Below, in pieces: positions 288 through 63,840 of a stretch of 64,000 nt of DNA. A model generated the notes under the pieces. That model did no database searches and had not been told where the DNA came from. It saw nothing but the letters and a program-made list of their open reading frames with translations. Numbering within the stretch: the stretch's first letter is position 1; every line of letters begins with the position of its first letter. Both the position numbers and the translations under genes were made by a program. Source of the stretch: Hymenobacter radiodurans (GTDB taxonomy: Bacteria; Bacteroidota; Bacteroidia; Cytophagales; Hymenobacteraceae); assembly GCF_004355185.1 (NCBI RefSeq), contig NZ_CP037922.1, positions 4,248,001-4,312,000 on the forward strand, in the 5' to 3' direction.

Positions 288-890
288 ATGCCTGTTTTTC
301 GACTTTATCGTAGCCTGAGTGCGGTTCTGCTTTTTGTAGGTGCCTCACTTACTTCTTGCACATCTTCTGGGGGCGACTATACGCCTAAGCCTAAAGGGTA
401 TAATCGTATTGATTTGCCCCCCCATACCTACCAGCAACTCCCGTCGGGCCGCCCCTATACATTTGAGTATTCGCAGCACGCGCGTATTCTGCGGGATTCA
501 TCATACTTAGCACAGCCCAATTGGATTAACATTTATTATCCAAAGCTGGGCGCTAATGTGCAGATCACTTATACTAACGTGCAGCAGAACCCCAAGCTGT
601 ATAATAAGATGATGGAGGATGCGCGTAAGCTCACCAGCAAGCACCAGATCAAGGCATCAGCCATTGACGAGAGCATCATGCAAACGCCTAGTGGGATGAA
701 AGTGGCCGTGTTTGAGCTAGCGGGTGACGTACCTAGCCAGTTTCAGTTTTATACAACTGATAGCACCAAGCATTTTTTCCGGGGGGCATTATACTTTCCT
801 ATCGCGACGGCCAATGATTCGCTCGCCCCGATCATTGACTATGTTAAGAAGGATATTGTACAGATGCTCAACACGTTGAAATATCAATAA
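288..890 (+). CDS. gldD: Gliding motility lipoprotein GldD
   Basis: A 200-residue exported lipoprotein. The ATG at 288 is preferred because it gives a compact lipoprotein signal peptide ending in SLTSC (Cys 24) and lies just after a -7 box. The mature protein carries GldD family landmarks: [12 protein letters not shown] near the start, NWINIYYP in the middle, and [18 protein letters not shown] near the C-terminus. GldD is needed for gliding and type IX secretion in flavobacteria, where it acts at the cell envelope; its exact biochemical role is not settled. Its usual partner gene gldE is not next to it. Motility of this organism cannot be inferred from this gene alone. Confidence 0.9.
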
Positions 891-903
891 CACTTTGCTT
901 AGT

Positions 904-952
904 GAGCAATGCAGGGAGCCAAGACGCCTTCGTCTTTTATCCTGCATTGCTC
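904..952 (+). promoter_or_regulatory. Long hairpin between gldD and recG
   Basis: A perfect 12-bp inverted repeat (GAGCAATGCAGG / CCTGCATTGCTC) encloses a smaller hairpin (AAGACG..CGTCTT) followed by TTTAT. It could end gldD transcription, but the right arm stops only 10 bases before the recG start codon, so it may also affect recG translation. A partial third copy (ATGAGCAAT) overlaps the recG start. Confidence 0.5.
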
Positions 953-962
953 ATTCCCATGA

Positions 963-3058
963 ATGAGCAATTTCTTCAATACCAAAATCGAGTATTTGCG
1001 TGGGGTAGGTACCCAGCGGGCACAGCTTCTGCAAAAGGAACTGAACCTTTTCACTTACGGCGACCTCATTCAGCGCTACCCCTTCCGCTACCTCGACCGT
1101 ACCCAGTTTTATAACATAGCGGACCTGCACGACGATCTGCCGTATGTGCAGGTGAAGGGCGTGTTGCGCAATCGTGAAGTGTTAGGGGAAGGCCCGAAAC
1201 AGCGCTTGGTAGCCAAAATTGCCGACGAGAGTGGTGAGCTGGAACTGGTGTGGTTTAAAGGGGTAAAATACCTGCAAAACGTCGTCAAGAACCACCAGGA
1301 ATACATTGTCTTCGGCAAGCCGACGATGTTCAATGGCAAGCCGCAAATGGCTCATCCAGAACTGGAGGAAGTAACGGAAGCCAAGCCGGGCCAAAGCTTC
1401 TTGCAGCCCGTTTACAACACTACCGAGAAGCTCAAAAACTACCATCGTATTGATAGCAAGGCGCTGGCCCGCATAGTGGCCGACTTGCTCAAAATTGCCC
1501 CCCGCACATTCCAGAGTCGTTGTCGCCGGCGCTGATTCAGCACTATGCGCTCATGGGCAAGGCAGATGCGTTGCAGCAGATTCACTTCCCGCAGAGTCCT
1601 GAGCTACTGCAAGCAGCGCGATTCCGGCTCAAGTTTGAGGAGTTGTTCTATGTCCAGCTCAAGCTGTTGCGCCAGCGAGACCAGCGTAAAGTAGAGCTAG
1701 CCGGCCAGATTTTCCGGGAGGTACCATCACTGGTTGATTTTTATAAGAACCATCTTCCCTTCGACCTCACTGGTGCCCAAAAACGTGTCATCCACGATAT
1801 CTACAAAGATTTTTGCGCCGGTAAGCAAATGAACCGCTTGCTACAGGGCGACGTAGGCTCGGGTAAAACCATCGTGGCCTTTATTGCTATGCTTATGGCT
1901 GCCGATAATGGCGCCCAAAGCTGCCTGATGGCCCCCACCGAAATTCTAGCTGACCAGCATTATGTTGGCCTCAAAGCATACGCCGACCAGTTGGGTATTA
2001 GTATAGGCAAGCTCACCGGCAGCACCCGTACTGCAGAGCGCCGGGTGTTGCATGAAGCACTGCGCGCAGGCCAGATGCATATGCTGGTGGGTACTCATGC
2101 CCTGCTGGAAGATGTAGTGCAGTTCCGCAACCTGGGCCTAACCATTATGGATGAGCAGCACCGCTTCGGCGTGGCGCAACGATCCAAGCTCTGGCAGAAG
2201 AACCCGCACGTCATACCCCATGTGCTAGTGATGACCGCTACGCCCATTCCGCGCACGCTGGCCATGACTTTATACGGAGACCTCGATGTCTCAGTGATTG
2301 ATGAGCTACCAGCGGGTCGTAAGCCCATCGTGACGGTGCATCGCTATGATGCTAACCGGCTCAAAGTATTTCAATTCCTGCGCGATCAAATCAACCTAGG
2401 TCGGCAGGTATATATCGTATATCCGCTCATTGAGGAATCGGAAACGCTGGACTACAAAGATCTCACAGACGGCTACGAAAGTGTGGCGCGCGCCTTCCCC
2501 GAGTTTCAGATTAGCATTGTGCATGGGCGGATGCGGGCTGAAGAGAAGGATTTCGAGATGCAGCGCTTCATAAAAAAGGAAACGCAGATCATGGTGGCAA
2601 CCACCGTCATTGAGGTGGGCGTGAATGTGCCTAATGCCTCCGTGATGGTAATAGAAAGCTCGGAGCGATTTGGCTTATCGCAGCTACACCAGTTGCGAGG
2701 CCGGGTGGGCCGGGGTGCTGACCAGAGCTATTGCATCCTGATGTCGGGCTATAAGCTCAGCAAGGATTCCCGCACTCGCCTCGAAACGATGGTGCGGACG
2801 AATAATGGCTTCGAGATTGCCGACATCGACTTAAAGCTACGCGGCCCCGGCGACCTGATGGGCACCCAGCAAAGCGGCGTACTTGATCTACTCATCGCCG
2901 ACTTAGCCAAGGATGGCCGTATTCTGAGCGAGTCGCGGGCGGCAGCTCAGCAGCTCCTAAGTGAAGATCCAGGTCTTAGCCGGCCCGACAACCTCAATAT
3001 TCGTCGCCATATCGAGTCGTTGCCCGCCACAGCTGTCAATTGGAGCCGAATCAGCTAA
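963..3058 (+). CDS. recG: ATP-dependent DNA helicase RecG (frameshifted in this assembly)
   Basis: RecG remodels stalled replication forks. The reading frame breaks at the C6 tract 1498-1503: the N-terminal frame runs to a stop at 1535, and the rest continues in another frame to 3058. Adding one C gives IAPPHIPESL across the joint and a 698-residue protein, the normal family length. The N-terminal part is the wedge/OB region (residues 1 to about 250). The helicase core shows Walker A GDVGSGKT (about 296), the DEQH box (MDEQHRFG), TATPIPRTLAMT and QLRGRVGRG. One missing base in a homopolymer of a repair helicase most likely reflects sequencing error rather than a real pseudogene. Confidence 0.93.
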
Positions 3059-3080
3059 CGTGAGCTTAGCTAATGAACAT

Positions 3081-3107
3081 AAAAAAAGCAACTAACTAGT
3101 TGCTTAT
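3081..3107 (+). terminator. Terminator-like hairpin after recG
   Basis: An A-run is followed by the palindrome AGCAACTAACTAGTTGCT. It lies between the converging ends of recG and the small minus-strand gene at 3121. Confidence 0.5.
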
Positions 3108-3749: not shown

Positions 3750-5201
3750 GTGCGATTTATATTTCCTCTTTCTCATTGCCTTATTTGGGCCATCAGTCTG
3801 GTCTTGGCTTTACCGGCGTTAGGGCAACGGGTAAAATCGGTAGCCTTTACCTACTTGCCCGAAAAGACGGACGACCGCTATAACCAACGGGTAGCCAAAA
3901 AAACGCTTCCTCTAACAGATGGTGGCTTCGTGATCTTAGCGCACCACACGGCTACTGAGTATGCGGTGGAGCGTTATGACAAAGAGCTAAAGCGCCTCTG
4001 GTCAACGGCCCTACCAGTTACAGCGGAGGAAAGCATTGATGGATTTGAACATAGTAGTCAGCAGGTTACAGCCATTATCTACCGCAAAGACGGTGCAGCC
4101 CAAAGCTTAACAGCGCAGCCGTTTGATTTGAGCACCGGCAAAATTGCCCCTCGGAAAAAGCTTACCGAAACTACTGCCCGCAACCGTCGCCCAGGGGCAG
4201 TTTTCTCCCTTGACGGTACTAAAATTGTGGCGTGGCAGTACGTCACCCGCGATGAGCAGATTCGGTCTATCAGCGCCAGCGTGTACGATGAGAAACTAAC
4301 CAAGCTCAAGGATCGGGTTTACAATTTTCAGGATCTGGGGGGCTTTTTTTCGACCACTATTCACGTCGACAACGAGGGCACACAGTACGTAACGCTGCTG
4401 AGCGACGAGATGAAGAAGCTCACGGTGCGCCGTTACCGCAATGATAATCCGGACATCAAAGTGATGTCGGTGGCCGTGGGGGGCTCCTTTGAGGGCAAGA
4501 GCATTATGGTGTTCGACGCCAAGTTTGCCCTTCAACCGGACTCCACACTCTACGCCGCCGCTATTTGCACGGAGCGCCTGACAGGCCTTTACTATAGCCT
4601 GAAAGTAGTAAAGTTCGATTTTGCGGGCCAAGGCACCATGAAGTTTGCCCCCGAGTTCCGCTTCAAGCCCGAATACTTAGCAGAAGTAAACAAGGCGACC
4701 CAATCAACAGCGAAGCGGTTGGAAGACGTGTATCTAAACGACTTGCTCTTCACCGCGGAAAAGCAGCTGATAGTCGTCGCGGAAAAGAAATATGAAGAGG
4801 GCGGCGATACTTCGCCAGTGCATGCCCGTGAGCTGCACTTATTCGGCTATAACGAGTTTCAGCTTCCAGAATGGCACAGCATCATCGATAAAAAGCAGGT
4901 AGCCTCACCCGCGGAAGCCTTTGCTGGAATCGGCTACCGAGTGGCAGTTTTTGGCCCCGAAATTCATATTCTAACGCAGGAAAAGCTGAAAGGTAAATCG
5001 GACTTGTACTTGCGCCGGGTGAACGCACAAACTGGTGTAGTAGAGCCGGCGAAAGGCTTGGGCCTTAACGTAGCCAATGACCAGCAGCTAGCTTACGTAA
5101 AGGACTTCACCGCTTGGCTAGACCCCAAAACTATCGTAGGTGTGAGCCGACCAAGCAAGAAATCGGCAGCATTACAGCTGAATAAAATTGCTGTAAAGTA
5201 G
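3750..5201 (+). CDS. Exported protein of unknown function
   Basis: A 483-residue protein starting at a GTG, with a signal peptide of about 25 residues ending LPALGQ. I do not recognise a named family. The mature part alternates short beta-rich blocks of the type GGFVILAHHTATEYAVERYD, which suggests a beta-propeller-like secreted or periplasmic protein; this is inference from pattern only. There is no lipobox and no C-terminal sorting domain. It stands alone between its own -7 box and a bidirectional terminator shared with fadE. It contains two GGGGGGC tracts (about 4336 and 4480), and both are in frame. Confidence 0.75.
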   Translation: MRFIFPLSHCLIWAISLVLALPALGQRVKSVAFTYLPEKTDDRYNQRVAKKTLPLTDGGFVILAHHTATEYAVERYDKELKRLWSTALPVTAEESIDGFEHSSQQVTAIIYRKDGAAQSLTAQPFDLSTGKIAPRKKLTETTARNRRPGAVFSLDGTKIVAWQYVTRDEQIRSISASVYDEKLTKLKDRVYNFQDLGGFFSTTIHVDNEGTQYVTLLSDEMKKLTVRRYRNDNPDIKVMSVAVGGSFEGKSIMVFDAKFALQPDSTLYAAAICTERLTGLYYSLKVVKFDFAGQGTMKFAPEFRFKPEYLAEVNKATQSTAKRLEDVYLNDLLFTAEKQLIVVAEKKYEEGGDTSPVHARELHLFGYNEFQLPEWHSIIDKKQVASPAEAFAGIGYRVAVFGPEIHILTQEKLKGKSDLYLRRVNAQTGVVEPAKGLGLNVANDQQLAYVKDFTAWLDPKTIVGVSRPSKKSAALQLNKIAVK

Positions 5202-5219: not shown

Positions 5220-5254
5220 AAAAAAGCCCCCAGACGAATCCTGGGGGCTTTTTT
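5220..5254. terminator. Bidirectional terminator, GCCCCCAG family
   Basis: Six A, then GCCCCCAG, loop, CTGGGGGC and six T. It serves both the plus-strand gene ending at 5201 and fadE ending at 5273. Unlike its relatives at 17104, 23164, 34186 and 57787, both arms have five C/G. Confidence 0.9.
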
Positions 5255-7285: not shown

Positions 7286-8463
7286 CTACTTCAGCAGTTC
7301 GTAAATACCGGCTACGCCTTGACCACCACCTACGCAGGCGGTTACCATGCCGTACTTCTTGCCCCGCTCGCGCAGTTCGTCGAAGAGTTGAATGCTGAGC
7401 TTAGCACCGGAGCAACCTAGCGGGTGGCCCAAAGCAATAGCACCACCGTTCACGTTGAGCTTCTCCTCATCAATACCCAACTCACGCACCACAGCAATAG
7501 ACTGAGAAGCGAAGGCCTCGTTTAGCTCAATTAGGTCGATATCGTCGAGCTTCATACCGGCTTGCTTCAGCGCTTTCGGCACGGCCTTAATAGGGCCCAT
7601 ACCCATGATGCGCGGGTCAACGCCTTCGGCGGCGTAGGTCACCATGCGAGCGATGGGCTCCAGGTTCAACTCCTTTACCATGCGCTCCGACATGACAATG
7701 ACGAAAGCAGCCCCATCGGATGTCTGGGAAGAGTTGCCGGCAGTCACGCTCCCGTTCGCCGCAAACACAGGGCGCAGACGGGCCAAAGCTTCAATAGATG
7801 TATCGGCACGCGGACCTTCGTCGGTATCAACCACGTAGGAACGGGTTTTTTTCTTTCCCGACGCTTGATCGAGGTAAGTTTCCTCAACTGTGATAGGCAC
7901 GATTTGCTTTTTGAATTTGCCCCCTGAATCGCTTTGATAGCTTTTTGGTGAGAGTTGTAAGCAAATCTATCCTGGTCTTCGCGGCTGATGTTGTAGTCCT
8001 TTGCTACCGCCTCAGCAGTCAGGCCCATGCCCAGATAATAGTCTGGGTGATTCTTAACCAGGTTGTAATTAGGCACTGTTTTCCAGCCCACGGTTGGTAC
8101 CTGCGACATGTTCTCAGCGCCGCCGGCCACAATGCAGTCGGCCATGCCAGCCGTGATTTTGCTGGCGGCCATGGCAATCGTTTCAATACCCGAGCCGCAG
8201 TAGCGATTCACGACTAAGCCCGGTACGTTTATGGGTAAGGCCAGCAGGGAAATCATCCGACCGATTTGCAGGCCTTGCTCCGCTTCAGGCACCGCGTTGC
8301 CCACAATTACGTCATCTACGCGAGTGGGATCAAGCGCGGGCACGGATGCCATCAGGTGTTTGATAACTTCAGCGGCGAGGTCATCGGTACGGGTGAAGCG
8401 GAAGCCGCCGCGGGGGGCTTTTCCGACGGCCGTACGGTAACCAGCTACGATATATGCAGTCAT
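7286..8463 (-). CDS. fadA: Acetyl-CoA acyltransferase (thiolase), frameshifted in this assembly
   Basis: Thiolase performs the last step of beta-oxidation, cleaving 3-ketoacyl-CoA with CoA. The N-terminal half ([20 protein letters not shown], nucleophile region [16 protein letters not shown]) and the C-terminal half ([23 protein letters not shown]) lie in different frames. They join at the C5 tract 7920-7924. With one base added, the minus strand reads CAGGGGGGCAAATTC (QGGKF) and the gene encodes 392 residues, the normal family length. The tract is then one copy of the abundant GGGGGGCAAA word. It sits 48 bases after fadN; fadN-fadA-fadE is also the B. subtilis operon order. The break is most likely a homopolymer undercall. 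Confidence 0.93.
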
Positions 8464-8511: not shown

Positions 8512-10920
8512 TTAGTTTCTCAATGGCTTGCCCGTAGTCAGGATGCTCTGAATGCGCTCCAGCGTTTTGCGCTCACCGGTGAGCGACAGGAAAGCTTCAC
8601 GCTCCAGATCCAGCAGGTACTGCTCGCTTACTTCCGTAGGCTGCGACAAGTCGCCGCCGCACATGATATAAGCCAGTTTATTGGCAATTTTCACGTCGTG
8701 CTCCGAGATGTAATTGCCTTCCTTCATGGCATATACACCACTCATAAACATACCCAGCGCTCCTTTGCCGTGCACCTTAATATTGGTTTTCTGCACGGGC
8801 ATGGTGTACCCAGCATCAGCTAAGTCCAGCGCCGCTGCTTTTGCCTGAGCGATGACGCGTTGGCTGTTCACCACGATTTCATCGCCGCGGCGTAGGAAGC
8901 CGAGGTCAAATGCTTCGGCGGCGGAGGTAGAAACCTTGGCCGTGCTTACCGTTACAAACGTGTTGCGCAGCAAGTTAAATTCCGGTTCGCCCTCCTCGTA
9001 CTTCGCGGCCGTGCGCAGGGTCATTTCCTTGGTACCACCACCCGCCGGAATTACACCTACCCCAAATTCTACCAAGCCCATATATGTCTCGGCTGAGGCA
9101 ACTACCTTATCAGCATGCAGGCAGATTTCGCAGCCGCCGCCCAAAGACAAGCCGTGCGGCGCCGTCACGACGGGAATGCTGGAATATCGCATCCGCATCA
9201 TGGCGTTCTGGAACTGCTTGATCATCAGGTTTACCTCGTCGAACTCCTGTTCGATGGCATACATATAGAGCAGCGCCAAATTGGCTCCCGCCGAAAAGTT
9301 GGGTGCGTCGTTGCCTACCACAAGCGCGCGGTAGCCAGCTTCGGCCATATCCACACCCTTCATCAAGCCTTGAATAACATCGGAGCCGAGGGTGTTCATT
9401 TTAGAATGGAACTCAACGCCTAATACTCCGTCGCCGAGGTCATGAACGCTGGCACCGGCGTTTTTCCAGAGCACTTTGCCCGTGGTCCGCAGGTTGTCGA
9501 GAATGATAAAGTTCTCCACACCCGGAATTGACTGGTAGCTCTTGCTTTCGAGGTCGTAGTACTGCTTGGCGCCCGTTTCGGATACTTTGTAGAAAGACGT
9601 GTGGCCAGCGGCCAGCATCTCCTGTACCCAAGCGGCAGGCTGCTTGCCTTCGGTCTGCATCAGCTCCAAGCCTTGCTGCACCCCCAGCGCATCCCAGGTT
9701 TCAAACGGACCCATGTCCCAGCCAAAACCAGCCCGCAGAGCGTCGTCAATCTTATACAGTGAATCCGTGATTTCGGGAATGCGGTTGGTGACATAGGCAA
9801 ACAGACCCGCGAACATCTTGCGGTAAAACTCGCCGGCTTTGTCCTTTCCGCTGGCTAGCACCTTAAAGCGCGGCGCCAGCTGCTCGATGGTTTTGGTCAG
9901 CTCCAGCGTGGCAAACTTCACCTTCTGGCTGGGCTGATACTCCATCGTTTTCAGGTCGAGGGCCTGAATCTCCGATTTGCCCCCCGCGCCTTTTACTTTC
10001 TTGTAGAAGCCCTGGCCGGTCTTGTCGCCCAGCCACTTCTTCTCGCCCATTTGCTTCAGAAAGTCAGGCAGCGTAAAGACAGCTTTGGCTTCATCGTTCG
10101 GTAAGCCTTGCGCTAAGCCATTGGCTACGTTAATCAGCGTATCAAGCCCTACTACATCCGAAGTGCGGAACGTAGCCGACTTGGCGTGGCCGATAACCGG
10201 ACCAGTTAGCTTGTCTACTTCCTCCACCGTCAGGTCTAGCTGCTGCATAATTTGCAGCACATCCATGATGGCAAACACGCCCACTCGGTTGGCAATAAAG
10301 GCAGGCGTGTCTTTGGCTAGTACTGTGGTTTTACCCAAGTACAAGTCGCCATAGTGCATCAGAAAATCAACTACGGCCGGATCGGTGGCCGGCGTCGGGA
10401 TGATTTCGAGTAGCTTCAGGTAGCGGGGTGGGTTGAAGAAGTGGGTGCCACAGAAGTGCTTTTGGAAGTCTTCGGAGCGGCCTTCCGCTAATAAATGAAT
10501 CGGAATACCGGAAGTGTTCGACGTGATGAGCGTACCGGGCTTGCGCACCTTTTCTACCTTTTCGTAGAGGCTCTGCTTGATATCGAGTCGTTCTACCACT
10601 ACCTCAATGGTCCAGTCGCAGGAGGCAATGTCCTTGAGGTTATCGTCGAAGTTGCCGGTTTTAATGCGCGACGCGTCCTGCTTGCGGTACAAAGGCGAAG
10701 GGTTGGAGGCCACCGCTGCCTGCAAGGAAGCATTCACAATGCGGTTGCGCACGGCGGGGCTTTCCAAGGTCAGCCCTTTGGCTTGCTCCTCGGGCGTGAG
10801 CTCGCGGGGCACAATGTCGAGCAGCAGCACTTGGGCACCGATGTTGGCGAAATGGCAGGCAATACGCGAGCCCATCACGCCGGAGCCGAGCACGGCTACT
10901 TTCTTGATAGTTCGATTCAT
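8512..10920 (-). CDS. fadN: 3-hydroxyacyl-CoA dehydrogenase / enoyl-CoA hydratase, FadN type
   Basis: An 802-residue two-enzyme protein for the hydration and NAD-dependent oxidation steps of beta-oxidation. The start MNRTIKKVAVLGSGVMGSRI at 10920 puts the Rossmann dinucleotide motif at residues 10-15. The dehydrogenase catalytic and C-terminal domains (THFFNPPRYLKLLEI, DKTGQGFYKK) come first, and the crotonase domain (APHGLSLGGGCEICLHAD, GVGVIPAGGGTKE) comes after, at about residues 440-680. This dehydrogenase-first order is that of B. subtilis FadN, not E. coli FadB. It lies between marR and fadA and is probably cotranscribed with fadA. Confidence 0.92.
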   Translation of the reverse strand: MNRTIKKVAVLGSGVMGSRIACHFANIGAQVLLLDIVPRELTPEEQAKGLTLESPAVRNRIVNASLQAAVASNPSPLYRKQDASRIKTGNFDDNLKDIASCDWTIEVVVERLDIKQSLYEKVEKVRKPGTLITSNTSGIPIHLLAEGRSEDFQKHFCGTHFFNPPRYLKLLEIIPTPATDPAVVDFLMHYGDLYLGKTTVLAKDTPAFIANRVGVFAIMDVLQIMQQLDLTVEEVDKLTGPVIGHAKSATFRTSDVVGLDTLINVANGLAQGLPNDEAKAVFTLPDFLKQMGEKKWLGDKTGQGFYKKVKGAGGKSEIQALDLKTMEYQPSQKVKFATLELTKTIEQLAPRFKVLASGKDKAGEFYRKMFAGLFAYVTNRIPEITDSLYKIDDALRAGFGWDMGPFETWDALGVQQGLELMQTEGKQPAAWVQEMLAAGHTSFYKVSETGAKQYYDLESKSYQSIPGVENFIILDNLRTTGKVLWKNAGASVHDLGDGVLGVEFHSKMNTLGSDVIQGLMKGVDMAEAGYRALVVGNDAPNFSAGANLALLYMYAIEQEFDEVNLMIKQFQNAMMRMRYSSIPVVTAPHGLSLGGGCEICLHADKVVASAETYMGLVEFGVGVIPAGGGTKEMTLRTAAKYEEGEPEFNLLRNTFVTVSTAKVSTSAAEAFDLGFLRRGDEIVVNSQRVIAQAKAAALDLADAGYTMPVQKTNIKVHGKGALGMFMSGVYAMKEGNYISEHDVKIANKLAYIMCGGDLSQPTEVSEQYLLDLEREAFLSLTGERKTLERIQSILTTGKPLRN

Positions 10921-10990
10921 AAAAGCTGAAACGGGTAATCTGTTGACAGAAAATAGAATAGGTGAAAACCAAAACGCGCCAAAAAGCCCC

Positions 10991-11482
10991 CTAGGCGGAG
11001 GTTGTTTCGGGGCGAAGCGGCTTAAGCGTGAAGTCGTCGAACAGGGATTTGCTCTCAATCATGGCGTTGATCTGGCCTATCACCTTAAAGAGCGTATCCA
11101 GTTGCGCCTGCGGAATTTTCTCCCGCACTTTCTGATTGAAATGACGTACCGTTTGGCGCGAGATTTCCTTGCCCCGCAAGCCCTCTTCCGTCAGAAAGAT
11201 GCGCACTGAGCGCTTGTCTTGCGTGTCGGCTTGTTTGTAGATGAGGCCGCGCTCTTCCATGCTCCGCAGAATGCGCGTAAGGCTACGCGTCTCCAACCCC
11301 AGCAGGGGGGCAATTTTGGTGGCGGGGGTGCCATTTTCCTGATCAATATTCAGGAGCACGAAGCCGATGCTGGTCGTGATGTCGTGCTTGGCAGCCTGCG
11401 TATTATACATGCGCGAAATGGCATGCCAGCAGACTTTTACGTTATAATCGACGGTTTCTTCGGGTTTCATGGGGGCAAGCAT
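10991..11482 (-). CDS. MarR-family transcriptional regulator
   Basis: A 163-residue winged-helix regulator. The helix-turn-helix region (TPATKIAPLLGLETRSLTRILRSMEERGLI) and the wing (YKQADTQDKRSVRIFLTEEG) are typical of MarR proteins, which bind DNA as dimers and release it on binding a small ligand. The start may be 11482 (MLAPMKPEE) or the Met four codons later. It sits directly upstream of fadN-fadA-fadE and next to an acyl-CoA synthetase. Its promoter shares a repeat with the fadE promoter, so a fatty-acid or acyl-CoA-responsive repressor of beta-oxidation is a reasonable inference. Its TAG stop runs into GGGGGCTTTTT, a weak terminator-like tail. Confidence 0.85.
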   Translation of the reverse strand: MLAPMKPEETVDYNVKVCWHAISRMYNTQAAKHDITTSIGFVLLNIDQENGTPATKIAPLLGLETRSLTRILRSMEERGLIYKQADTQDKRSVRIFLTEEGLRGKEISRQTVRHFNQKVREKIPQAQLDTLFKVIGQINAMIESKSLFDDFTLKPLRPETTSA

Positions 11483-11621: not shown

Positions 11622-13397
11622 CTAGCGGAGAGCGTTTTGGTGATACAAGCTCTCGATTAAGTCGCGGTTGTTTTCGGTGATTGCCTTCCGCTTGACTTTC
11701 ATCGTAGGAGTCATCTCGCCAGTTTCCACGGTCCAGAGATGATCCATGATGCAGATTTTTTTAACCTGCTCCCACTGCGCGAAGCCTTTGTTGTAGTCTT
11801 TTACCAGTGCTTCATACATCTCCACAATCTTGGGATCCTTCACAATCTCTTCATTGGAGGTAAAGGGCACCTGGTGGCGCTTGCACCAGTTCTTGAGTTC
11901 ATCAAAGGATGGTACCACCAGCGCCGACGGAAATTTCTGATCAGCGCCTACCACCATCGCCTGCTCAATCAGCGGCGACTCCTTGAGCTTGTTCTCAATA
12001 ACCTGTGGAGCAATGTATTTGCCCCCCGAGGTCTTAAACATCTCCTTTTTACGATCCGTGATTTTGAGGAAACGGCCGTTCACGAACTCCCCAATATCGC
12101 CGGTATGGAACCAGCCATCCTCGTCGATTACTTCTTTGGTTAGTTCAGGCTTATTGTAGTAGCCTTTCATGACGGAAGCAGATTTGGTCAGAATCTCACC
12201 GTCCGGGGCGATTTTGACCTCCGTATTTTCAATCACGGGGCCCACGGCGCCGATGTAGTTATTCTCCGGCTCGAAGCCGCTAACGGCAATTACGGGGGAA
12301 GTTTCGGTGAGGCCATAGCCTTCCATCACCGGAATGCCCGCCGCCCAGAACACGCGGGCCAGCCGCGGTTGTAGCGCGCCGCCACCCGACACAATACACT
12401 TCAAATTGCCACCCAACGCTTCCCGCCACTTGTTGAAGATCAACTTATTGGCCAGTGCTAGTTGGGTGTTGTAAAAGAAGCCCTGGTTTTTCTGGGTATC
12501 AAACTTTAACCCCAGATCCAGGGCCCAGAAGAAGAGGTTTTTCTTCACACCTTCCAAATCGTGGCCCTTGGCGACAATCTTATCATACACCTTCTCCAGC
12601 AGGCGCGGCACGGTGGTGAAGATCTGCGGCTTGACCTCACGCAGGTTGTCGGCAATTACTTCCATGCTCTCGGCGTAGTAAATGCTCACGCCGTTAATCA
12701 TGTACAGATACGTCACCATGCGCTCAAAAATGTGGCAGAGCGGCAGGAAGCTAAGGGCTATATCGTCTTTATTGACGGGTACCGAAGGCTGCGAATGGCG
12801 ACAGTTGCTGAGCAAGTTGTCATGGCTGAGCATCACCCCTTTCGGGTTACCGGTAGTGCCGGAGGTATAGATGATGGTGAGCAGGTCGTCGGGCTGCACG
12901 CCAGCTTTTATCGGGTCTAAATCGGCGGCGTTGCCTTTCTTACCCATGGCCAGCAGTTCGTCGAAGTGCCGAGCGCCTTCAATTTTATCAAACGTGAAAA
13001 TGTGCTGTACTTCGGGCAAAGCGGCAGTAGCCTCTTTTACCTTGGCGTACAGGTTTTTATCTGAAACAAACACGGCCTTTACACCGGCATCGGTGAAGAT
13101 GTATTTATAGTCTTCAACCGTAATGCTGGGGTACATAGGCACGCTCACGGCACCAAGTTGGGAAATACCAAAGTCGGCCAACATCCACTCCGGACGATTC
13201 ATGGAGATGATGGCCACCTTATCGTCCTTTCCAATTCCCAACTGCCGCAACCCTAAGCTTACCTGATTGGCAGCCTCACTTACCTGCTGAGTGCTCATCT
13301 TTTGCCATTCGCCATTGACTTTGGCGGTCAGACAATCCGACTTCGGATACTTTGCAAGCTGGTTAGGCAGAACATCAAACGCGCGCCGAACTTCCAT
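11622..13397 (-). CDS. Long-chain fatty acid-CoA ligase (AMP-forming)
   Basis: A 591-residue member of the acyl-adenylate family that activates fatty acids to acyl-CoA at the cost of ATP, feeding the adjacent beta-oxidation genes. Visible motifs are the P-loop IIYTSGTTGNPKGVMLSH (near residue 175), GYGLTETSPVI, DGWFHTGDIG and the hinge/C-domain KITDRKKEMFKTSGGKYIAP. Length and motif layout match the bacterial long-chain ligases of the LC-FACS group. It has its own terminator, and about 140 bases separate it from marR, so it is probably transcribed separately but belongs functionally with fadE/fadA/fadN. Confidence 0.92.
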   Translation of the reverse strand: MEVRRAFDVLPNQLAKYPKSDCLTAKVNGEWQKMSTQQVSEAANQVSLGLRQLGIGKDDKVAIISMNRPEWMLADFGISQLGAVSVPMYPSITVEDYKYIFTDAGVKAVFVSDKNLYAKVKEATAALPEVQHIFTFDKIEGARHFDELLAMGKKGNAADLDPIKAGVQPDDLLTIIYTSGTTGNPKGVMLSHDNLLSNCRHSQPSVPVNKDDIALSFLPLCHIFERMVTYLYMINGVSIYYAESMEVIADNLREVKPQIFTTVPRLLEKVYDKIVAKGHDLEGVKKNLFFWALDLGLKFDTQKNQGFFYNTQLALANKLIFNKWREALGGNLKCIVSGGGALQPRLARVFWAAGIPVMEGYGLTETSPVIAVSGFEPENNYIGAVGPVIENTEVKIAPDGEILTKSASVMKGYYNKPELTKEVIDEDGWFHTGDIGEFVNGRFLKITDRKKEMFKTSGGKYIAPQVIENKLKESPLIEQAMVVGADQKFPSALVVPSFDELKNWCKRHQVPFTSNEEIVKDPKIVEMYEALVKDYNKGFAQWEQVKKICIMDHLWTVETGEMTPTMKVKRKAITENNRDLIESLYHQNALR

Positions 13398-13553
13398 TTA
13401 TTAAGAGCAAAAGGGTGGGAAATACTGGTTAAATAAATGGATTTTTTCGCGGAAAGCCAACTACCTCCGTACGATTGCGCTGCTGGGGGGCAAATGTGGT
13501 GGATGGCTGACTCGATTTGCGTAATTTCGCCGGCCTGCCTTGCTTTTTGCCCG

Positions 13554-16623: not shown

Positions 16624-16660
16624 AAAAAAGCCCCCAGAACGAGTCCGGGGGGCTTTTTTT
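16624..16660. terminator. Bidirectional terminator, GCCCCCAG family
   Basis: Six A, GCCCCCAG, loop, CCGGGGGGC and seven T between converging genes. The left arm has five C and the right arm six G. Confidence 0.85.
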
Positions 16661-17103: not shown

Positions 17104-17155
17104 ATCTCAGTAAAAAAGCCCCCAGAGCTACTCTGGGGGGCTTTTTTACTGAGAT
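17104..17155. terminator. Long palindromic terminator of der, GCCCCCAG family
   Basis: The constant core (A6 GCCCCCAG / CTGGGGGGC T6) is extended by locus-specific perfect arms ATCTCAGT / ACTGAGAT and by GAG/CTC inside. The only imperfection in roughly 24-bp arms is five C on the left against six G on the right. It ends the minus-strand der transcript. Confidence 0.9.
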
Positions 17156-26043: not shown

Positions 26044-26048
26044 ATTTA

Positions 26049-48819: not shown

Positions 48820-49878
48820 ATGCCTCGTCTTTCCCTCTCCGATTTTCTGCAAGGCTCGCCCGACGTGCCCATTCTGGATGTGCGGGCACCGGTAGAATAC
48901 GCCCACGGCCACATTCCGGGAGCCGTAAGTTTACCCTTATTTACGGATGAGGAACGGGCCCGCATTGGCACCGCTTACAAGCAGGTTAGTCAGGAGAGAG
49001 CCATTCATATCGGTCTGGATTTTTTTGGACCGAAGATGAGCAAGATGGTGAAGCTAGCGCAGAAAATTGCCCCCCAGAAGGAGGTGCGCCTGCATTGCTG
49101 GCGGGGTGGCATGCGCAGCGGAGCCGTGCTGTGGCTGCTAGAGTTGGCCGGTTTTAAAGTGCATCTGCTGGATAAAGGCTACAAAGACTACCGCCGCTGG
49201 GCGCTAGCTCAATTTGCTCAGCCGCGTTCCTTGTTCGTGCTGGGTGGCCTGACGGGCAGCGGTAAAACCGACGTACTGCACGAGCTAGCCCGCCAAGGTG
49301 AGCCCATTGTTGATCTAGAGGGTTTGGCCAGCCACAAAGGCTCGTCGTTTGGCAGCATTGGGTTGTCGCCGCAGCCTACGGCCGAACAATTTGAGAACGA
49401 CTTGGCTCTTGCATTGGCAAATTTGCCCCCCAACGCCGTGCCGTGGTTCGAAGATGAAAGCTTGTCTATCGGCCGCGTGACCATTCCGAAGCCACTCTTC
49501 GAGCAAATGCGCCTTGCTCCGCTCGTGGTGCTCGACATTCCGCGGGCGGTGCGCACCAGTAAGCTAGCAGCTGAATATGGCCGCGAAGACCCCGCCGAGC
49601 TAGCTGGGGCCATTCAGCGCATCAGTAAGCGTTTGGGTGGGTTGGCAACGAAGGAAGCATTGACGGCCATTGAGGCAGGAGACATGGAAAAAATGGTAGA
49701 CATCGCGCTTGATTATTATGACAAAACCTACGGCCACGGGTTAAACACCAAAATCAACAGCACTATCGTGCGTGTTCCTTCCAACACCTGCGACCCGGTA
49801 GTGAATGCCGAACTGGTGCGGGCCGCGGCCAAAACGGTAGTCGCCCAGTCTCTTTTTGCTTCCCGGGGCGTCGCTTAA
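48820..49878 (+). CDS. mnmH: tRNA 2-selenouridine synthase (SelU/MnmH)
   Basis: A 352-residue enzyme that replaces sulfur of 2-thiouridine at the wobble position of tRNA with selenium from selenophosphate. Start MPRLSLSDFL at 48820. The N-terminal rhodanese domain has the active Cys in LHCWRGGMRS (Cys 93); a P-loop domain follows (GGLTGSGKT, 142-150). The next gene is selD, which makes selenophosphate, so the two form a working pair. Confidence 0.95.
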   Translation: MPRLSLSDFLQGSPDVPILDVRAPVEYAHGHIPGAVSLPLFTDEERARIGTAYKQVSQERAIHIGLDFFGPKMSKMVKLAQKIAPQKEVRLHCWRGGMRSGAVLWLLELAGFKVHLLDKGYKDYRRWALAQFAQPRSLFVLGGLTGSGKTDVLHELARQGEPIVDLEGLASHKGSSFGSIGLSPQPTAEQFENDLALALANLPPNAVPWFEDESLSIGRVTIPKPLFEQMRLAPLVVLDIPRAVRTSKLAAEYGREDPAELAGAIQRISKRLGGLATKEALTAIEAGDMEKMVDIALDYYDKTYGHGLNTKINSTIVRVPSNTCDPVVNAELVRAAAKTVVAQSLFASRGVA

Positions 49879-49932: not shown

Positions 49933-50983
49933 ATGATCTCCGAAGAAATCGACCAAATCCGCCTCACTCAGTATAGTCATGGGGCAGGCTGCGGCTGCAA
50001 AATCGCGCCGAAAGTGCTTGACCAAATTCTGCACACCAGCATTTCGCAGTCCCAAAACGATAAGTTGCTAGTAGGCAATAGCTCCCGCGACGATGCAGCC
50101 GTGTTCGATATCGGTGGCGGGCAGGCCATTATCAGTACCACCGACTTTTTCATGCCCATCGTAGATGACGCCTACGACTTTGGGCGTATTGCCTCGGCCA
50201 ATGCCATCAGCGACGTGTATGCCATGGGCGGGCGGCCGGTGATGGCTATTGCCGTGCTAGGTTGGCCCATCGATAAATTGCCCCCCGAGGTGGCGCGCCG
50301 TGTTATCGAAGGTAGCCGTAGCATCTGCGCCGAGGCGGGCATACCGCTGGCGGGCGGCCACAGCATCGACTCACCAGAACCCATTTTCGGCCTGGCCGTG
50401 ACTGGTATGCTTGATATTCCTAACCTCAAGCGCAACGACACGGCCACGGCGGGCTGTGAGCTTTACCTTACCAAACCGTTGGGCGTGGGCATGATGACAA
50501 CAGCGCAAAAACGCGCCATTCTGCGTCCTGAGCACGAGCAAATTGCCCCCCAGCAAATGATGCAGCTCAACAAAATTGGCTACGCACTCGGCCAGCTTGC
50601 CGCCGTGCACGCCATGACTGATGTGACTGGGTTCGGTCTGCTCGGGCACTTGGCGGAGGTATGTGAGGGCAGCAACGTGACGGCAGAAATTGACTTCGCG
50701 AAAGTGCCTTTGCTCAAGGAAGCAGAGGAATACCGTCAGCAAAAAGCAGTGCCCGGCGGCACTATCCGTAACTGGGACAGCTACGGCCACAAAATTGGGC
50801 CGGTGACGGATGAGCAGCGTCAGTGGCTGTGCGACCCGCAAACGTCGGGGGCTTGCTGGTGTGCGTAGCGCCGGAAGGACGCGAGGCGGTGGGGGCATTT
50901 TTGCTCAATACGGTCTCGACTTGCAATCCTTTGGCACGCTGCGGCCACATACGCCGGGCGAGGCCTGGATTCAGGTTCGGTAA
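49933..50983 (+). CDS. selD: Selenide, water dikinase SelD (two frameshifts in this assembly)
   Basis: SelD makes selenophosphate from selenide and ATP. The active Cys and Lys are in SHGAGCGCK (Cys 20, Lys 23); [16 protein letters not shown] and [13 protein letters not shown] are the ATP/metal segments. The frame breaks at the G5 tract 50847-50851. With one G restored it reads [17 protein letters not shown], then breaks again at the G5 tract 50891-50895. With one G restored there too it ends [25 protein letters not shown]. The repaired protein is 350 residues, the family length. Both breaks sit in GGGGGC where GGGGGGC is expected. Confidence 0.93.
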
Positions 50984-51648: not shown

Positions 51649-52418
51649 ATGCAATTACACTACCGCGAACAGGGCCAAGGCACACCGCTGGTTATTCTGC
51701 ACGGCCTTTTTGGTACCCTCGACAACTGGCAAACCTTGGCGAAACGCTGGGCGGAACTTCATCGGGTTATTGCCGTGGACTTACGCAACCACGGCCGTTC
51801 GCCCCATACCGAGGAGCATACCTATGAGTTGATGAGTGAGGACGTGCGGGAGCTTTTCACCCAACTCCAGCTCGAAGCTCCTACCCTACTTGGCCACAGC
51901 ATGGGGGGCAAAGTAGCCATGCGCTTCGCCCTCGATTACCCTGATTTGCTGGCGCGACTGGTGGTGCTGGATATTGCGCCCAGCTTCTCGGATATGCTCC
52001 ACCAAGACAACATTTTGGCGGGCCTTCACGCTGTAGATCTACCACGCGTAGAAAACCGGCAGCAGGCCGATGAGATGATGGCCCAGCATATAAAGCAGGA
52101 TTCGGTACGGCAGTTTTTGCTAAAAAACCTTTACCGCCGCGAAGACCATTCGTTTGCCTGGCGCCTTAACCTAGAGGCGCTCACCTCACATATGGCACAC
52201 GTCGGTGCGGAGATAAAAGCCCCCCAGCCTTTCCTAAAGCCCGCTTTATTTGTTCGGGGGGCAAATCGGACTACATCACAACGGAGGACAAGCTGCATGT
52301 TATTCCGGCACTTTTCCCCAATTCCCAGGTTGAAACCATCCCTGATGTAGGCCACTGGCTCCACACCGAAGCTCCTGACAAGGTGTTTGAGCTGGTTAAT
52401 GCCTTTATGCAAGGTTAA
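51649..52418 (+). CDS. Alpha/beta hydrolase, YbfF-like esterase (frameshifted in this assembly)
   Basis: An esterase-like hydrolase. LVILHGLFGTLDNWQTLAK, the elbow LLGHSMGGKVAM and DLRNHGRSPH match YbfF-type enzymes. The frame breaks at the G6 tract 52256-52261; with one more G it reads VRGGKSDYITTEDKL and ends with the catalytic His in VGHWLHTEAPDKVFELVNAF, giving 256 residues, the usual family length. The tract is again a GGGGGGCAAA word. Confidence 0.9.
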
Positions 52419-57786: not shown

Positions 57787-57832
57787 CACTAATAAAAAGC
57801 CCCCAGAAAAATTCTGGGGGGCTTTTTTGTGA
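57787..57832. terminator. Terminator, GCCCCCAG family
   Basis: Core A5 GCCCCCAGAA / TTCTGGGGGGC T6 with short outer CAC/GTG pairing, between converging genes. Five C on the left, six G on the right. Confidence 0.88.
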
Positions 57833-60376: not shown

Positions 60377-62871
60377 TTATTCACTTATGAATATGCGCTT
60401 TACTCGCTCGCTTACATTCGTCAGTAGCTCATAGGGTATGGTGCCGATGCGGGAAGCCAACTCTACCAATGGCATCTCCTCGCCAAATACGACTACTACG
60501 TCGCCGGCTTGTGCATCGGGAATGTGGGTGACATCGACCATGCACATATCCATACACACGTTGCCGATGATTGGCGCCCGTAGGCCGCGTATCACTACTT
60601 CGCCTACGCCGTTGCCAAAACGCCGATCATAGCCGTCGGCATACCCAATGGCTATAGTGGCCGTGCGCCGCTCAAAGTCGGTAGCGACACCCCGACGCCC
60701 GTAGCCAACTGTTTGACCAGCAGGCAACTTTTTAACTTGAGAAATGACCGTATGCAATGCGCTAACGGGTCGCAGAGCCGCTGAATCCTGGCCCGATGCT
60801 TCTACTCCGTACAGGCCAATTCCCAGGCGCACCATGTCGAGATGAGCCTCTGGAAAGCGGATGATGCCAGCAGAATTTAGCGCATGCTTCAACACAGGGT
60901 AGCCTAAAGCCGCTTCCACCAGCGGCGTCATTCGCTGAAAGGCGGCTAGCTGCTGGTGCGAAAATTCATTGTGCTGCTCTTCGTCGGCGCCGGCCAAATG
61001 GGTCAGCATACTGGCTACACGCAGCTGGGGGCTTTTTTCCGCAATAAGGCACACAGCTTATCCAGATCTTCTTCAGCAAAGCCCAACCGCCGCATACCCG
61101 TGTCGAGTTTCAGGTGAATAGCTGGCATCGGCTGCTCTTCAGCGGCCAGAAGATAATCGTGCAGACGCTCGAAGGAGTAGATTTCGGGCTCTAAATGATA
61201 TTGATGTAGCTTTTGGAAGCTGTCGGGCGACGGGTTCATCACCATAATCGGCAGGCTAATGCCGTGTTGCCGTAGCTCTACGCCTTCATCGGCATAGGCC
61301 ACGGCCAAGTAGTCGGCGCGGTGAAACTGGAGCAGGTTGGCTACTTCGTAGCTGCCGCTGCCGTAGGCAAATGCCTTGACCATCACCATCAGACGGGTGC
61401 CGGGCGCGAGGCGGGCGCGGTAGTAGTTGAGGTTGTGCACCAACGCATCCAGGTTCACCTCCAGCACCGTACCGTGGATTTTTTGCTGAAAAGCAGCCAC
61501 AATCCGCTCAAATTCAAACCGGCGGGCACCCTTTACCAGAATCGTTTCGTGGCGAAACTGCTCCGGCTGAAAAGCCGCCAGAAACGCTTCTGTACTGGCA
61601 TAAAAAGCCCTCCGGAACTCGCTAAATAACTGCTGGTGCGCGCTTATCGCCTCGCCAATACCGATAATCCGCCCGACACCGTGCGCGGGCAGTTGGGCTG
61701 CAATCCGAGCGTACAACTCCGCTGCCGGTAAGCCCGACTCTAGCACGTCGGAGAGAATAAGCGTGCGCTGCCCGCGGCGAGGTTGGCGGGCCAGGGCATC
61801 AAGGGCCAGCGTGAGACCCGCCAGGTCGTTGTTGTAGGTATCATCGAGAACGTAGCAGTCGTTGAGGGCCTGCTTCATCTCCAGGCGCATGGCTACGGGC
61901 AACAGCCGGTCGAGGCGGCGCTGAATCTCGGTGGCTGGCACGGCGTACCACAGCAGCACGGCCAAGCAATGCAGAGCGTTTTCTACCGAAGGCTCATCGG
62001 CGAAGGGCAAGGTAAAGGTGTATTCCTCAACTCTCGAGCGGACCAAACGCACATGCACCACCGTGCGCTCGGCGCTGGCTTCCGTTACCGTGACGCCCAA
62101 ATTTGCCTCCTGCTGATGCTGCCGACTCCACGTAAAGGTGCGGGCCGGACCAAGCATCTGCTGGGCAGCACTGTGAATGGCTTCATGGTCGCGGCAGTAG
62201 AAGAGCGTATCTACCGCTTCAAAAAGCTGCATTTTCTCCTGCACTTTCTCTTCCGCCGAAGAAAAACCCGCATCGTGCGCCGTACCGAGGTTAGTGAAAA
62301 TGCCGAGCGTGGGCTGAATAACAGCCGCGAGCTTCGCCATTTCGCCCCGCTCCGAAATACCCGCCTCAAAAATTCCCAGCGTGTGTGTTGCGTTCAGCTC
62401 CCACACGGATAGCGGCACGCCCACTTGCGAATTGTAGCTGCGCGGGCTTTTACAAATCAGCTCATCGGAGCTGAGCAATTGGGCCAGCCACTCTTTTACA
62501 ATGGTTTTGCCATTGGAGCCCGTGATACCAACTATCGGAATAGTAAACTGCTGCCGATGCCAGGCCGTCAACGCCTGCAAAGCCGCTAGACTGTCCTGAA
62601 TCAGCAGAAAGCCGGCCTCGGGGAATGCCAATTTGCCCCCCGGTATCTCCTCTACCCTATCAACTACAAACAGACGCACGCCGCGCTTATACAGGTCGGG
62701 CAGGTAGCGGTGGCCGTTGTGCTGGGCTCCGCGGATGGCAAAGAACAGGGAGCCGGCTGGCTGCCCCACGCGCCGGCTGTCGAGCAGCAGGTGCTGCACG
62801 CGACTCGCCTCGGGAGGCGTTTGGAGCAAGGTGCCGCCGGTGAGAGCGGGCAGATCGGAGAAGGATAGCAT
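60377..62871 (-). CDS. murF-alr: Fused MurF ligase / alanine racemase (frameshifted in this assembly)
   Basis: A bifunctional enzyme: MurF adds D-Ala-D-Ala to UDP-MurNAc-tripeptide, and the racemase makes D-Ala. This fusion is typical of Bacteroidota. The start ATG 62871 (MLSFSDLPALTGGTLLQTPP) lies 7 bases after a -7 box. The MurF part has the P-loop VGITGSNGKTIVKEW; the racemase begins near residue 470 (VLEVNLDALVHNLNYYRARL) with the PLP Lys in MVKAFAYGSG (about 499). The frame breaks at the G5 tract 61027-61031; with one G more it reads RKKAPQLRVASM and gives 831 residues. An essential enzyme is very unlikely to be disrupted, so this is probably an assembly error. Confidence 0.94.
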
Positions 62872-62877
62872 GGAGAG

Positions 62878-62885
62878 CAAAGGTA
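62878..62885 (-). promoter_or_regulatory. Candidate -7 box of murF-alr
   Basis: Reads TACCTTTG on the minus strand and ends 6 bases before the ATG at 62871, predicting a leaderless mRNA. The divergent box of the next gene begins 10 bases away. Confidence 0.6.
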
Positions 62886-62895
62886 AGGCGTGTGG

Positions 62896-62903
62896 TATCT
62901 TTG
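62896..62903 (+). promoter_or_regulatory. Candidate -7 box of the RarD-like permease gene
   Basis: TATCTTTG, exact TAnnTTTG, 26 bases before the GTG at 62930. Confidence 0.55.
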
Positions 62904-62929
62904 CGGTCTTTACCGTTTGTTTCTTCGTT

Positions 62930-63840
62930 GTGCAACTTACTCGCTACCACCTGGCCGCACTCGCGGCTTTTCTTATTTGGGGCTTTTTCCCCATTCCGCT
63001 TCGTATGCTCGCCAGCTACAGCAGTGGGCAGATTCTTTTTTTCGGGTCCTCATTTCCCTCCTGATTTTACTGATCATTAATCTGCTGTTCCGCACCTCGG
63101 CCGTGCGCGCCACGTGGCGCAAGTGGCGTACAGCACCCATAGGCGAGCGGCGCGGGGTGGCTGGCAGCACCTTACTGGGGGGCATTTTGCTTACGTCCAA
63201 CTGGCTGCTATTCATTTATGTCATCAATAAAGTAAGTGTGCAAGCAGGCTCCTTCGCTTACCTCATCTGTCCTATCCTGACGGCGTTGCTCGGGTTTCTG
63301 GTGCTGCGCGAAAAGCTGCGGCGCAATCAGTGGCTGGCCATCGGGTTGAGCGCCTTGAGCTGCGCGTTGCTGGGTACGGGCTCGGCGCGCACATTACTGA
63401 TGAGCTTGGTGGTAGCGTCCACTTACGCCCTGTACCTTATCACCCAGCGCCGCCTGCAAGGCTACGACCGGCTAGTGCTGCTCACGGTGCAGCTTTCGCT
63501 CGCTGCCGCCTTTATTTTGCCCACCGCCAGCTTATTAGGCGCCTCTCCCCTAGCCGGTTTTCACGACCTGCATTTGCTGCTGATAACGGCTATTTTGAGT
63601 ACTGTTTTTACGGTACTACCGCTATTTCTAAATCTATATGCTCTAAATACGCTGCCTTCGGGCACAGTAGGTATTCTGATGTATTTGAATCCGGTAGTAA
63701 GCTTTCTGCTGGCTTTTCTTTATTTCAATGAGGCCGCGACTACTATTCAGGCTGTCGCGTACGCTATTATTCTGGGCTCCGTCGTGCTGTATAATATGCG
63801 TTTTGGGGCCGCAGCAATAAGTAGTAAGCCCAGCATTTGA
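62930..63840 (+). CDS. RarD-like EamA-family permease (frameshifted in this assembly)
   Basis: An inner-membrane protein of the drug/metabolite transporter family with about ten helices in two EamA repeats. A GTG at 62930 (VQLTRYHLAALAAFLIWG) starts it. The frame breaks at the T7 tract 63036-63042; an eighth T restores SGQILFFRVLISLLILLIIN and gives 303 residues. NWLLFIYVINKVSVQAGSFA and GTVGILMYLNPVVSFLLAFL are RarD-type signatures. The substrate is unknown. Confidence 0.88.

Follow-up and report, generated by a model that had tools for sequence, protein, structure and literature searches.

An A-tract-GCCCCCC word dispersed through the chromosomes of one small Hymenobacter clade

The window analyzed here, a stretch of 64,000 nucleotides (nt) from Hymenobacter radiodurans (C2:4248001-4312000), carries many copies of a short word composed of an A/T tract followed by GCCCCCC. 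The genome (G000; 4,918,966 bases) consists of the contigs C2 (4,728,901) and C1 (190,065), and we take C1 as a plasmid or second replicon. Within this 64-kb window, 37 sites match [AT]4GCCCCCC, and 31 of them lie inside open reading frames (ORFs) called with a simple script, as the initial annotation had indicated by placing the word mostly in genes. The short form TTTGCCCCCC occurs in 15 exact copies versus 0.15 expected from dinucleotide shuffles (maximum 2 among 100 shuffles), and TTGCCCCCC in 23 copies versus 0.78 (shuffle maximum 4). The latter stand within a few bases of the roughly 23 places that the initial annotation had counted, and 20 of them fall within [AT]4GCCCCCC sites; the related ATGCCCCCC and AAAGCCCCCC copies that it mentioned turned out to be part of the same word. 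Weaker copies of TTTGCCCCCC or TTGCCCCCC also exist outside the wider word (413..422, 23463..23471 and 51903..51912). The features of the window are listed below with their strand, where it applies; the three relatives are H. roseosalivarius (G063), Hymenobacter sp. BT188 (G085) and H. qilianensis (G061).

413..422 (+): TTTGCCCCCC, weaker copy with three A/T only, not among the 37 sites
781..791 (-): word site in ORF 153-890 (GldD); not intact in BT188 and H. qilianensis, uncovered in H. roseosalivarius
1493..1503 (+): word site in ORF 963-1535; intact in H. qilianensis, seven C in BT188, uncovered in H. roseosalivarius
4337..4347 (-): word site in ORF 3750-5201
5223..5251: hairpin resembling a terminator, from an inverted C5/G5 pair
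8412..8422 (-): word site between ORFs or at the edge of one; intact in three relatives
9975..9985 (+): word site in ORF 8512-11058(-), 3-hydroxyacyl-CoA dehydrogenase
11305..11315 (-): word site, ORF strand uncertain; two outgroups one base off (GCGCCCC)
12017..12027 (+): word site in ORF 11622-13397(-), AMP-binding enzyme
13485..13495 (-): word site in ORF 13437-14702; intact in three relatives
16627..16657: terminator hairpin with a C5 arm and a G6 arm, the G6 arm being word site 16647-16657(-)
17115..17145: terminator hairpin C5/G6, includes word site 17135-17145(-)
19764..19774 (+): word site in ORF 19726-20796
21392..21402 (-): word site in ORF 20892-21719; intact in three relatives
23178..23207: terminator hairpin C5/G6, includes word site 23197-23207(-)
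23463..23471 (-): TTGCCCCCC, weaker copy that does not match [AT]4GCCCCCC
24953..24963 (+): word site in ORF 24480-25880(-), phosphoglucomutase/phosphomannomutase
26603..26613 (+): word site in ORF 25992-26888, MazG
30552..30562 (+): word site in ORF 30257-31141, TonB-type protein
31056..31066 (+): second word site in ORF 30257-31141; intact in three relatives
31507..31517 (-): word site in ORF 31458-32537; intact in three relatives
34202..34231: terminator hairpin C5/G6, word site 34221-34231(-); fold z -5.1
35305..35315 (-): word site in ORF 34267-35328(-), RluA-family pseudouridine synthase
40652..40662 (+): word site in ORF 40163-40885(-)
40761..40771 (+): second word site in ORF 40163-40885(-)
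41596..41606 (-): word site in ORF 40928-41902(-); intact in three relatives
43322..43332 (+): word site in ORF 42888-44327(-), Omp85-type protein
44271..44281 (-): second word site in ORF 42888-44327(-)
44749..44759 (+): word site in ORF 44468-45202(-)
46329..46339 (-): word site in ORF 46071-46748(-), glutamine amidotransferase
46358..46368 (-): word site on the same strand as the 46329..46339 site, 29 bp away
49065..49075 (+): word site in ORF 48757-49878, rhodanese domain
49421..49431 (+): second word site in ORF 48757-49878
50276..50286 (+): word site in ORF 49933-50868, AIR synthase-related
50541..50551 (+): second word site in ORF 49933-50868; GCGCCCC in two outgroups
51903..51912 (-): TTTGCCCCCC, weaker copy that does not match [AT]4GCCCCCC
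52215..52225 (+): word site in ORF 51649-52350
52256..52266 (-): second word site in ORF 51649-52350
57796..57826: terminator hairpin C5/G6, word site 57816-57826(-); fold z -4.1
62631..62641 (+): word site in ORF 61015-62880(-), Mur ligase/alanine racemase
63177..63187 (-): word site in ORF 62890-63840

In the whole genome, TTTGCCCCCC was found 1,202 times (624 + 578), versus 5 copies (1 + 4) of the reversed word used as a control, so that the earlier claim of a word far above chance was an understatement. The wider form WWWWGCCCCCC (W, A or T) amounts to 2,991 copies per 4.9 Mb with a control count of 28, and the density of the full word on the chromosome is about 1 copy per 1.6 kb. The shuffle and reversed-word counts rule out chance or base composition as its source. 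A chromosome sample of 444 kb, comprising the window and 19 stretches of 20 kb with ORFs called by the same script, contained 275 full sites, of which 194 were in ORFs, 77 between ORFs and 4 at edges, and the sites occurred all round the chromosome, with 6-16 per 20 kb in the 19 stretches. The initial annotation had raised the possibility of counts at the level set by codon usage; however, the 194 coding sites compare with 6.5 predicted from the proteins and their codon usage (30-fold; maximum of 20 resamplings, 10), and codon usage was therefore rejected as the source. A longer dispersed repeat was also ruled out, since conservation stops at about 14 bp. The coding sites stand in both orientations, as had been noted, with 93 on the gene strand and 101 on the opposite strand, and they occupy all six phases without restriction to a codon position. 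A mild excess was seen in the first 120 nt of genes (41 sites versus ~25 expected).

Alignment of the sample sites on GCCCCCC without a seventh C gave a consensus of about 5'-A(A/T)4-G-CCCCCC-(A/G): an A/T run from -5 to -1, weaker at -6, then the G, the six C, and A (0.69) or G (0.25), with nothing strong in the flanking positions beyond. The C tract, described at the outset as nearly always six, is mostly so; after [AT]4G in the 444 kb there were 66 C4, 122 C5, 262 C6, 7 C7 and 1 C8 runs. In coding DNA, GC6 following an AnTm tract was found 178 times versus 4.5 expected and GC6 following a TpA-bearing A/T tract 16 times versus 2.3, GC6 without a four-base A/T tract was not enriched (41 versus 51), and an A tract placed directly on C6, with the G missing, did not occur (0 versus 2.7). 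C5 after the A/T tract was also enriched (48 versus 7). The five AnTm tetramers were near-equal in the coding sites (32-38 each), and TpA steps were present in the A/T tract of only 17 of the 275 sites versus ~160 expected from the W4G background. One-off variants of the core exceeded expectation at the core ends (GGCCCCC, 13 versus 1.6; GCCCCCA, 19 versus 1.2; GCCCCCT, 14 versus 1.9), and internal ones were mostly near or below expectation. The avoidance of TpA suggests that the word is recognized by its shape in double-stranded DNA; such a tract pattern would be expected from a protein contacting the narrow groove along a stiff A tract.

The full word showed no ori-ter polarity among the 275 sites, with forward/reverse counts of 65/64 in 0-2.4 Mb and 77/69 in 2.4-4.7 Mb, or 141 versus 134 by replichore, the replichores being approximate and set by the sign of the GC skew (of the 10 stretches in each half, 9 in the first half had a positive skew and 8 in the second a negative one). 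The short form TTTGCCCCCC leaned slightly, 56 versus 42, toward G6 on the presumed leading strand. In three contiguous regions the spacing of the sites was indistinguishable from random (P 0.24-0.49), so that even spacing was not shown.

Among 120 genomes of the genus Hymenobacter, only four were rich in the word. The WWWWGCCCCCC counts (control in brackets) were 2,991 (28) in the window's genome, 2,483 (21) in H. qilianensis, 3,096 (47) in H. roseosalivarius and 3,473 (33) in BT188, and the other 116 genomes had 6-48 copies, on the order of their controls. Likewise, TTTGCCCCCC was present in 975-1,202 copies in the four and in 1-24 copies in the others. The BamA proteins of the three relatives are 96-98% identical to that of the window, and those of the next genus members at most 82%. 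These named relatives agree with the genus, Hymenobacter, given in the initial annotation. No additional rich genome appeared in a draw of 291 genomes from the order (top count 71, control 14), and none besides the window's own in a draw of 395 genomes from the phylum (next 72, control 38). Phages were considered as carriers, but of the 166 viral stretches counted out of 177, 157 were single-site and the richest held 4 sites in 12.6 kb, which gives no sign of the word system. Searches of a set of open-access papers turned up no description of a word of this kind in Hymenobacter or Bacteroidota.

Within the clade, individual sites are retained. The window sites were intact at 24 of 34 places in H. 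roseosalivarius, 24 of 37 in BT188 and 22 of 37 in H. qilianensis (identical 11-mers 22, 24 and 20), the last count being too low owing to C6 to C5 indels, and control 11-mers of similar composition were identical at 16 of 64, 26 of 75 and 27 of 75 places, respectively. In the outgroups G015 and G012 no site was intact (0/34 and 0/33). The flanks of the sites were slightly less conserved within the clade than the average (0.82-0.85 versus 0.85-0.88); therefore, conserved surroundings do not explain the retention of the sites. When the window region was compared across the four genomes with lenient scoring for H. qilianensis, 53 site places were found, of which 20 were common to all four; 15 were absent from just one of the three strictly scored genomes, 2 were private to one of those three and 2 to H. 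qilianensis, 10 further places were present in one strictly scored genome and in the leniently scored H. qilianensis and may hide gains, and the remaining places were partly uncovered. We read this as writing of the word mostly before the species split, followed by maintenance with slow loss, although the lenient scoring may hide gains. The codons under the sites matched those of the two outgroups slightly less often (83/124 and 81/125) than the flanking codons (360/507 and 352/504), which is not convincing as an amino-acid cost. In the H. qilianensis chromosome (L161-L164), 13 of 33 aligned C6 word sites were one C short, some of them in genes; matching flanks were required, and 6 more sites with mismatching flanks were set aside. 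Comparison runs short of one base were 1 of 13 for A/T6 and 0 of 3 for non-word C6. These indels had been considered as a modification signal, but with an assembly of 93% completeness, the missing C is probably a homopolymer error of the assembly, although the non-word C6 runs available for comparison are few.

The word is largely confined to the chromosome. The contig C1 holds 11 sites in the 180 kb sampled, or ~0.06/kb versus 0.62/kb in the chromosome sample, which is about tenfold rarer. Four smaller H. qilianensis contigs hold 2 sites in the 120 kb sampled of about 396 kb. For BT188, six short contigs were sampled (first 20 kb or all), of which five hold 1 site in ~97 kb; the sixth has 13 sites in 20 kb, and we take it as chromosomal.

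Part of the word is found in terminators. With a looser pattern (443 sites in the sample), 47 neighboring pairs lay less than 50 bp apart, 36 of them convergent, and 29 of these had starts 20-22 bp apart. The convergent pairs form terminator hairpins; on folding, two of three stretches formed the hairpin and the third excluded one arm. In the window, five of the six intergenic hairpin pairs combine one C5 arm with one C6 arm, so that the full word is kept on one arm, and a seventh convergent pair (52216-52265) is inside a gene. Over the 444-kb sample, 18 of 42 hairpins had 5/6 or 6/5 arms, 9 had 5/5 and 5 had 6/6, and 6/6 arms were commonest in the relatives (4 of 7 in BT188, 3 of 5 in H. roseosalivarius). 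The C5/G6 hairpins apparently carry an unpaired base, and in all six 5/6 or 6/5 hairpins of the sample with a gene on one side only, the C6 was in the 5' arm of the transcript. Inverted pairs acting as terminators are usual for uptake words. The initial annotation had considered the word as a possible by-product of a terminator-core repeat; however, 194 of the 275 full sites are inside ORFs and only 36 convergent pairs were found among the 443 sites, so a by-product is not supported; the word serves in terminators as one of its uses.

Different words were found in other lineages of Hymenobacter. CCTACCCCC reached 3,530 copies in G080, 3,409 in G078, 3,140 in G058, 3,123 in G027 and 2,419 in G108, with 294-1,259 in nine more genomes and 10-147 in the remaining 106 of the 120. 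At the loci L055, L063 and L189-L204 (G078, G058, G036, G081, G002), we observed a second word, CCTACCCC (in some of them CTACCCC or CCTACCC), which was mostly on the gene strand in G078, G058 and G002; its complement resembles the FtsK orienting polar sequences (KOPS), GGGNAGGG. Words of the CCTACCCC type were 5- to 20-fold above codon expectation in coding DNA. A third family, reminiscent of the highly iterated palindromes (HIPs), is centered on CCTAGG (ACCTAGGT, GCCTAGGC, CCCTAGGG, ACCTAGGG) and was seen at L037 (H. cavernae), L051, L053, L066, L076, L083 and L207-L208 (G055). CCTAGG itself occurred in 8,806 copies in G070, 8,591 in G086, 7,530 in G055, 5,949 in G013, 5,749 in G019 and 5,585 in G105, with 1,209-2,331 in four more genomes and 63-888 in the other 110. 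In the coding DNA sampled from eight genomes or loci, the CCTACCCC and CCTAGG kinds of word were ~5- to 44-fold over codon expectation. The three sets of word-rich genomes do not overlap, and the genus seems to have word dialects. Outside Hymenobacter, 22-kb loci of Pontibacter (L084, L086, L087, L089, L091, L093, L095, L103, L105) were enriched in AGGTATAG or AAGTATAA, with up to 25 copies versus 2.8 expected, possibly another word of the family. Two local enrichments are perhaps tandem repeats, AGCTAACAG at L049 (H. rubripertinctus; 11 copies versus 0.07 expected) and CTAACTCTC at L092 (P. pamirensis; 8 versus 0.12). Furthermore, GGATCC is scarce in 43 of the 120 Hymenobacter genomes (0-30 copies, versus 42-325 in the others), which looks like restriction-site avoidance in part of the genus.

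The initial annotation had proposed a genome-wide signal word, and the counts above support this. It is very probable that the A-tract-GCCCCCC word belongs to the class of double-strand words that are read by a protein and spread by a DNA-level process. As for the process itself, we tentatively suggest DNA uptake or self-recognition, which may account for the spread but falls short of being probable. Here, a putative reader protein would recognize A(A/T)4-G-CCCCCC-(A/G) on double-stranded DNA through a stiff AnTm tract without TpA, and a DNA-level process overriding codon choice would have written the word into the chromosome of one small clade, where it would have been kept since. The genome searches yielded no candidate gene for this reader. 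Cells of the clade would preferentially take up or recombine word-bearing DNA, so that alleles with the word would replace alleles without it, and uptake would proceed via a pilus-independent Bacteroidota machinery ending in ComEC. The 2,991 copies per 4.9 Mb count in favor of uptake, as they are within the published range of 943 to 5,918 copies of uptake words per genome, in smaller genomes (PMC3630211, in excerpt). Also in favor are the placement on both gene strands and in all six phases at 30-fold over codon expectation, the lack of ori-ter polarity, the rarity of TpA and the need for an A/T tract, the retention of sites in the relatives, the use of inverted pairs as terminators, the scarcity of sites on the second replicon, the different words of the sister lineages, which recall the dialects of uptake words, and the mild excess near gene starts, given that uptake words of Pasteurellaceae lean to gene termini (PMC2346458, in excerpt). 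ComEC (PF03772) is present in 12 of 12 genomes searched. Riemerella is a member of the Bacteroidota. It undergoes transformation, in which ComEC, DprA, ComF, RecA and four proteins without a known function take part, and its genome has no pilus homologs according to its authors (PMC8459023, in excerpt). The uptake proteins named there include ones with DUF5689, a carboxypeptidase regulatory-like domain, HhH and DUF1343; pilus-free uptake is therefore precedented among kin.

Several observations weigh against the uptake reading. First, PF00437, the T2SSE family of pilus, type II and VirB11-type ATPases, was found in 0 of the 12 genomes with 14 of 14 controls positive, so the known readers of uptake words, the type IV minor pilins, would be without their machine here; ComEC is not specific, being present in the 8 non-word genomes searched too; and literature searches found no competence tests for this clade. 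Second, the sites have no preferred orientation within genes and are not enriched toward gene ends (the last two 60-nt bins hold 11 and 8 sites versus 12.7 expected), whereas uptake words favor one orientation in reading frames and those of Pasteurellaceae lean to gene termini (PMC2346458, in excerpt). Third, there are few private sites in the window region: the 15 places absent from just one of the three strictly scored genomes outnumber the 2 private to one of them, although the 10 places shared with the leniently scored H. qilianensis may hide gains. Fourth, the second replicon and plasmid-sized contigs are often GC-richer (0.52-0.65), which itself lowers the chance of an A/T tract and explains at most part of the gap to the chromosome. 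At last, the sister-lineage words have no clear core in common with A-tract-GCCCCCC, and some are palindromic (CCTAGG), more like HIPs. In the broader form of the uptake reading, the A-tract-GCCCCCC, CCTACCCC and CCTAGG words would be mutually exclusive self-recognition signals for pilus-independent uptake or exchange, with the specificity of the reader switched several times in the genus, which we regard as rather doubtful.

Of the alternatives, a site for chromosome maintenance is unlikely, yet it fits several of the observations. A clade-specific nucleoid-associated, recombination or repair protein would bind the word, and the sites would be selected for packing or repair. Recognition by shape plus base suits such proteins, and the sites are spread round the chromosome and retained, few of them being clearly private. 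Nevertheless, no spacing more regular than random was demonstrated, sites are almost absent from the second replicon and from the sampled plasmid-sized contigs, and the unrelated words of the sister lineages are hard to square with one housekeeping binder. Less likely again is a HIP-like word arising from biased repair, in which a mismatch-repair or methylation-linked system would convert near-matches and the word might have no other role. HIPs are highly iterated, are replaced by other words in places in relatives and have been modeled by their author as products of biased mismatch repair, and the excess of one-off variants mostly at the core ends is as reported for HIP1 (PMC4390886, in excerpt). 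However, the A-tract-GCCCCCC word is not palindromic, the second replicon is nearly free of it, and, among methyltransferases, the C5 family PF00145 was found in 0 of the 4 word genomes, and the N6/N4 family PF01555 is missing from the window's genome and BT188, with one match in H. roseosalivarius and two weaker pieces in H. qilianensis; other methyltransferase families were not searched. A polar signal for recombination or chromosome segregation, like Chi or KOPS, is very unlikely. The word is G-rich on one of its strands and occurs genome-wide, and the short form leans slightly to G6 on the presumed leading strand, but the full word has no polarity (141 versus 134), and with its length of 12-13 bp and an A/T tract read by shape it is unlike a strand-read octamer. 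Of the signal words that the initial annotation had offered as examples, Chi, KOPS and the methylation form of HIP1 find no support, and an uptake sequence stands as a possibility with the usual pilus ATPase missing. That the word merely follows from codon usage, from mutation bias or from the terminator repeat is scarcely credible unless the ORF calls are grossly in error, because, although terminators contain the word, it is 30-fold over codon expectation with 194 of 275 sites in ORFs, other genus members are at chance level, the second replicon is nearly free of it, and conservation limited to about 14 bp means that it is not part of a longer repeat.

Compared with known systems, the word resembles the DNA uptake sequences (DUS) of Neisseriaceae and the uptake signal sequences (USS) of Pasteurellaceae in that a single short word occurs thousands of times within one lineage, in both orientations in genes, and, as for DUS, in lineage dialects. 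USS have an A/T tract beside a G/C core, and their inverted pairs serve as terminators. In contrast, Hymenobacter is not a proteobacterium, and the genomes searched are without the T2SSE-family ATPase (0/12) and thus without a type IV pilus of the known type. Chi is likewise G-rich and genome-wide, but the Hymenobacter full word is longer, has an A/T tract and lacks replication polarity. KOPS are also genome-wide G-rich double-strand words, but they are defined by ori-to-dif polarity, which was not seen here. Uptake words have dialects, and those of DUS have the core CTG in common (PMC3630211, in excerpt), whereas the Hymenobacter sister words have no clear common core. HIP1 and the alternate HIPs of cyanobacteria are similar in their very high copy number, the presence of another word in some relatives and the one-off variants at the ends; the Hymenobacter word differs in being non-palindromic with an A/T tract without TpA, and both methyltransferase families searched are missing from the window's genome. 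As no known family matches on all tested features, we assign the word to none. Over-frequent words come in three classes, Chi, uptake sequences and HIPs (PMC4390886, in excerpt), and the Hymenobacter word fails a defining feature of each. It arose in a single clade, and its sister lineages have words of their own. Since cultured strains exist (H. roseosalivarius DSM 11622 and H. qilianensis JCM 19763), what writes, reads and switches such words becomes testable.

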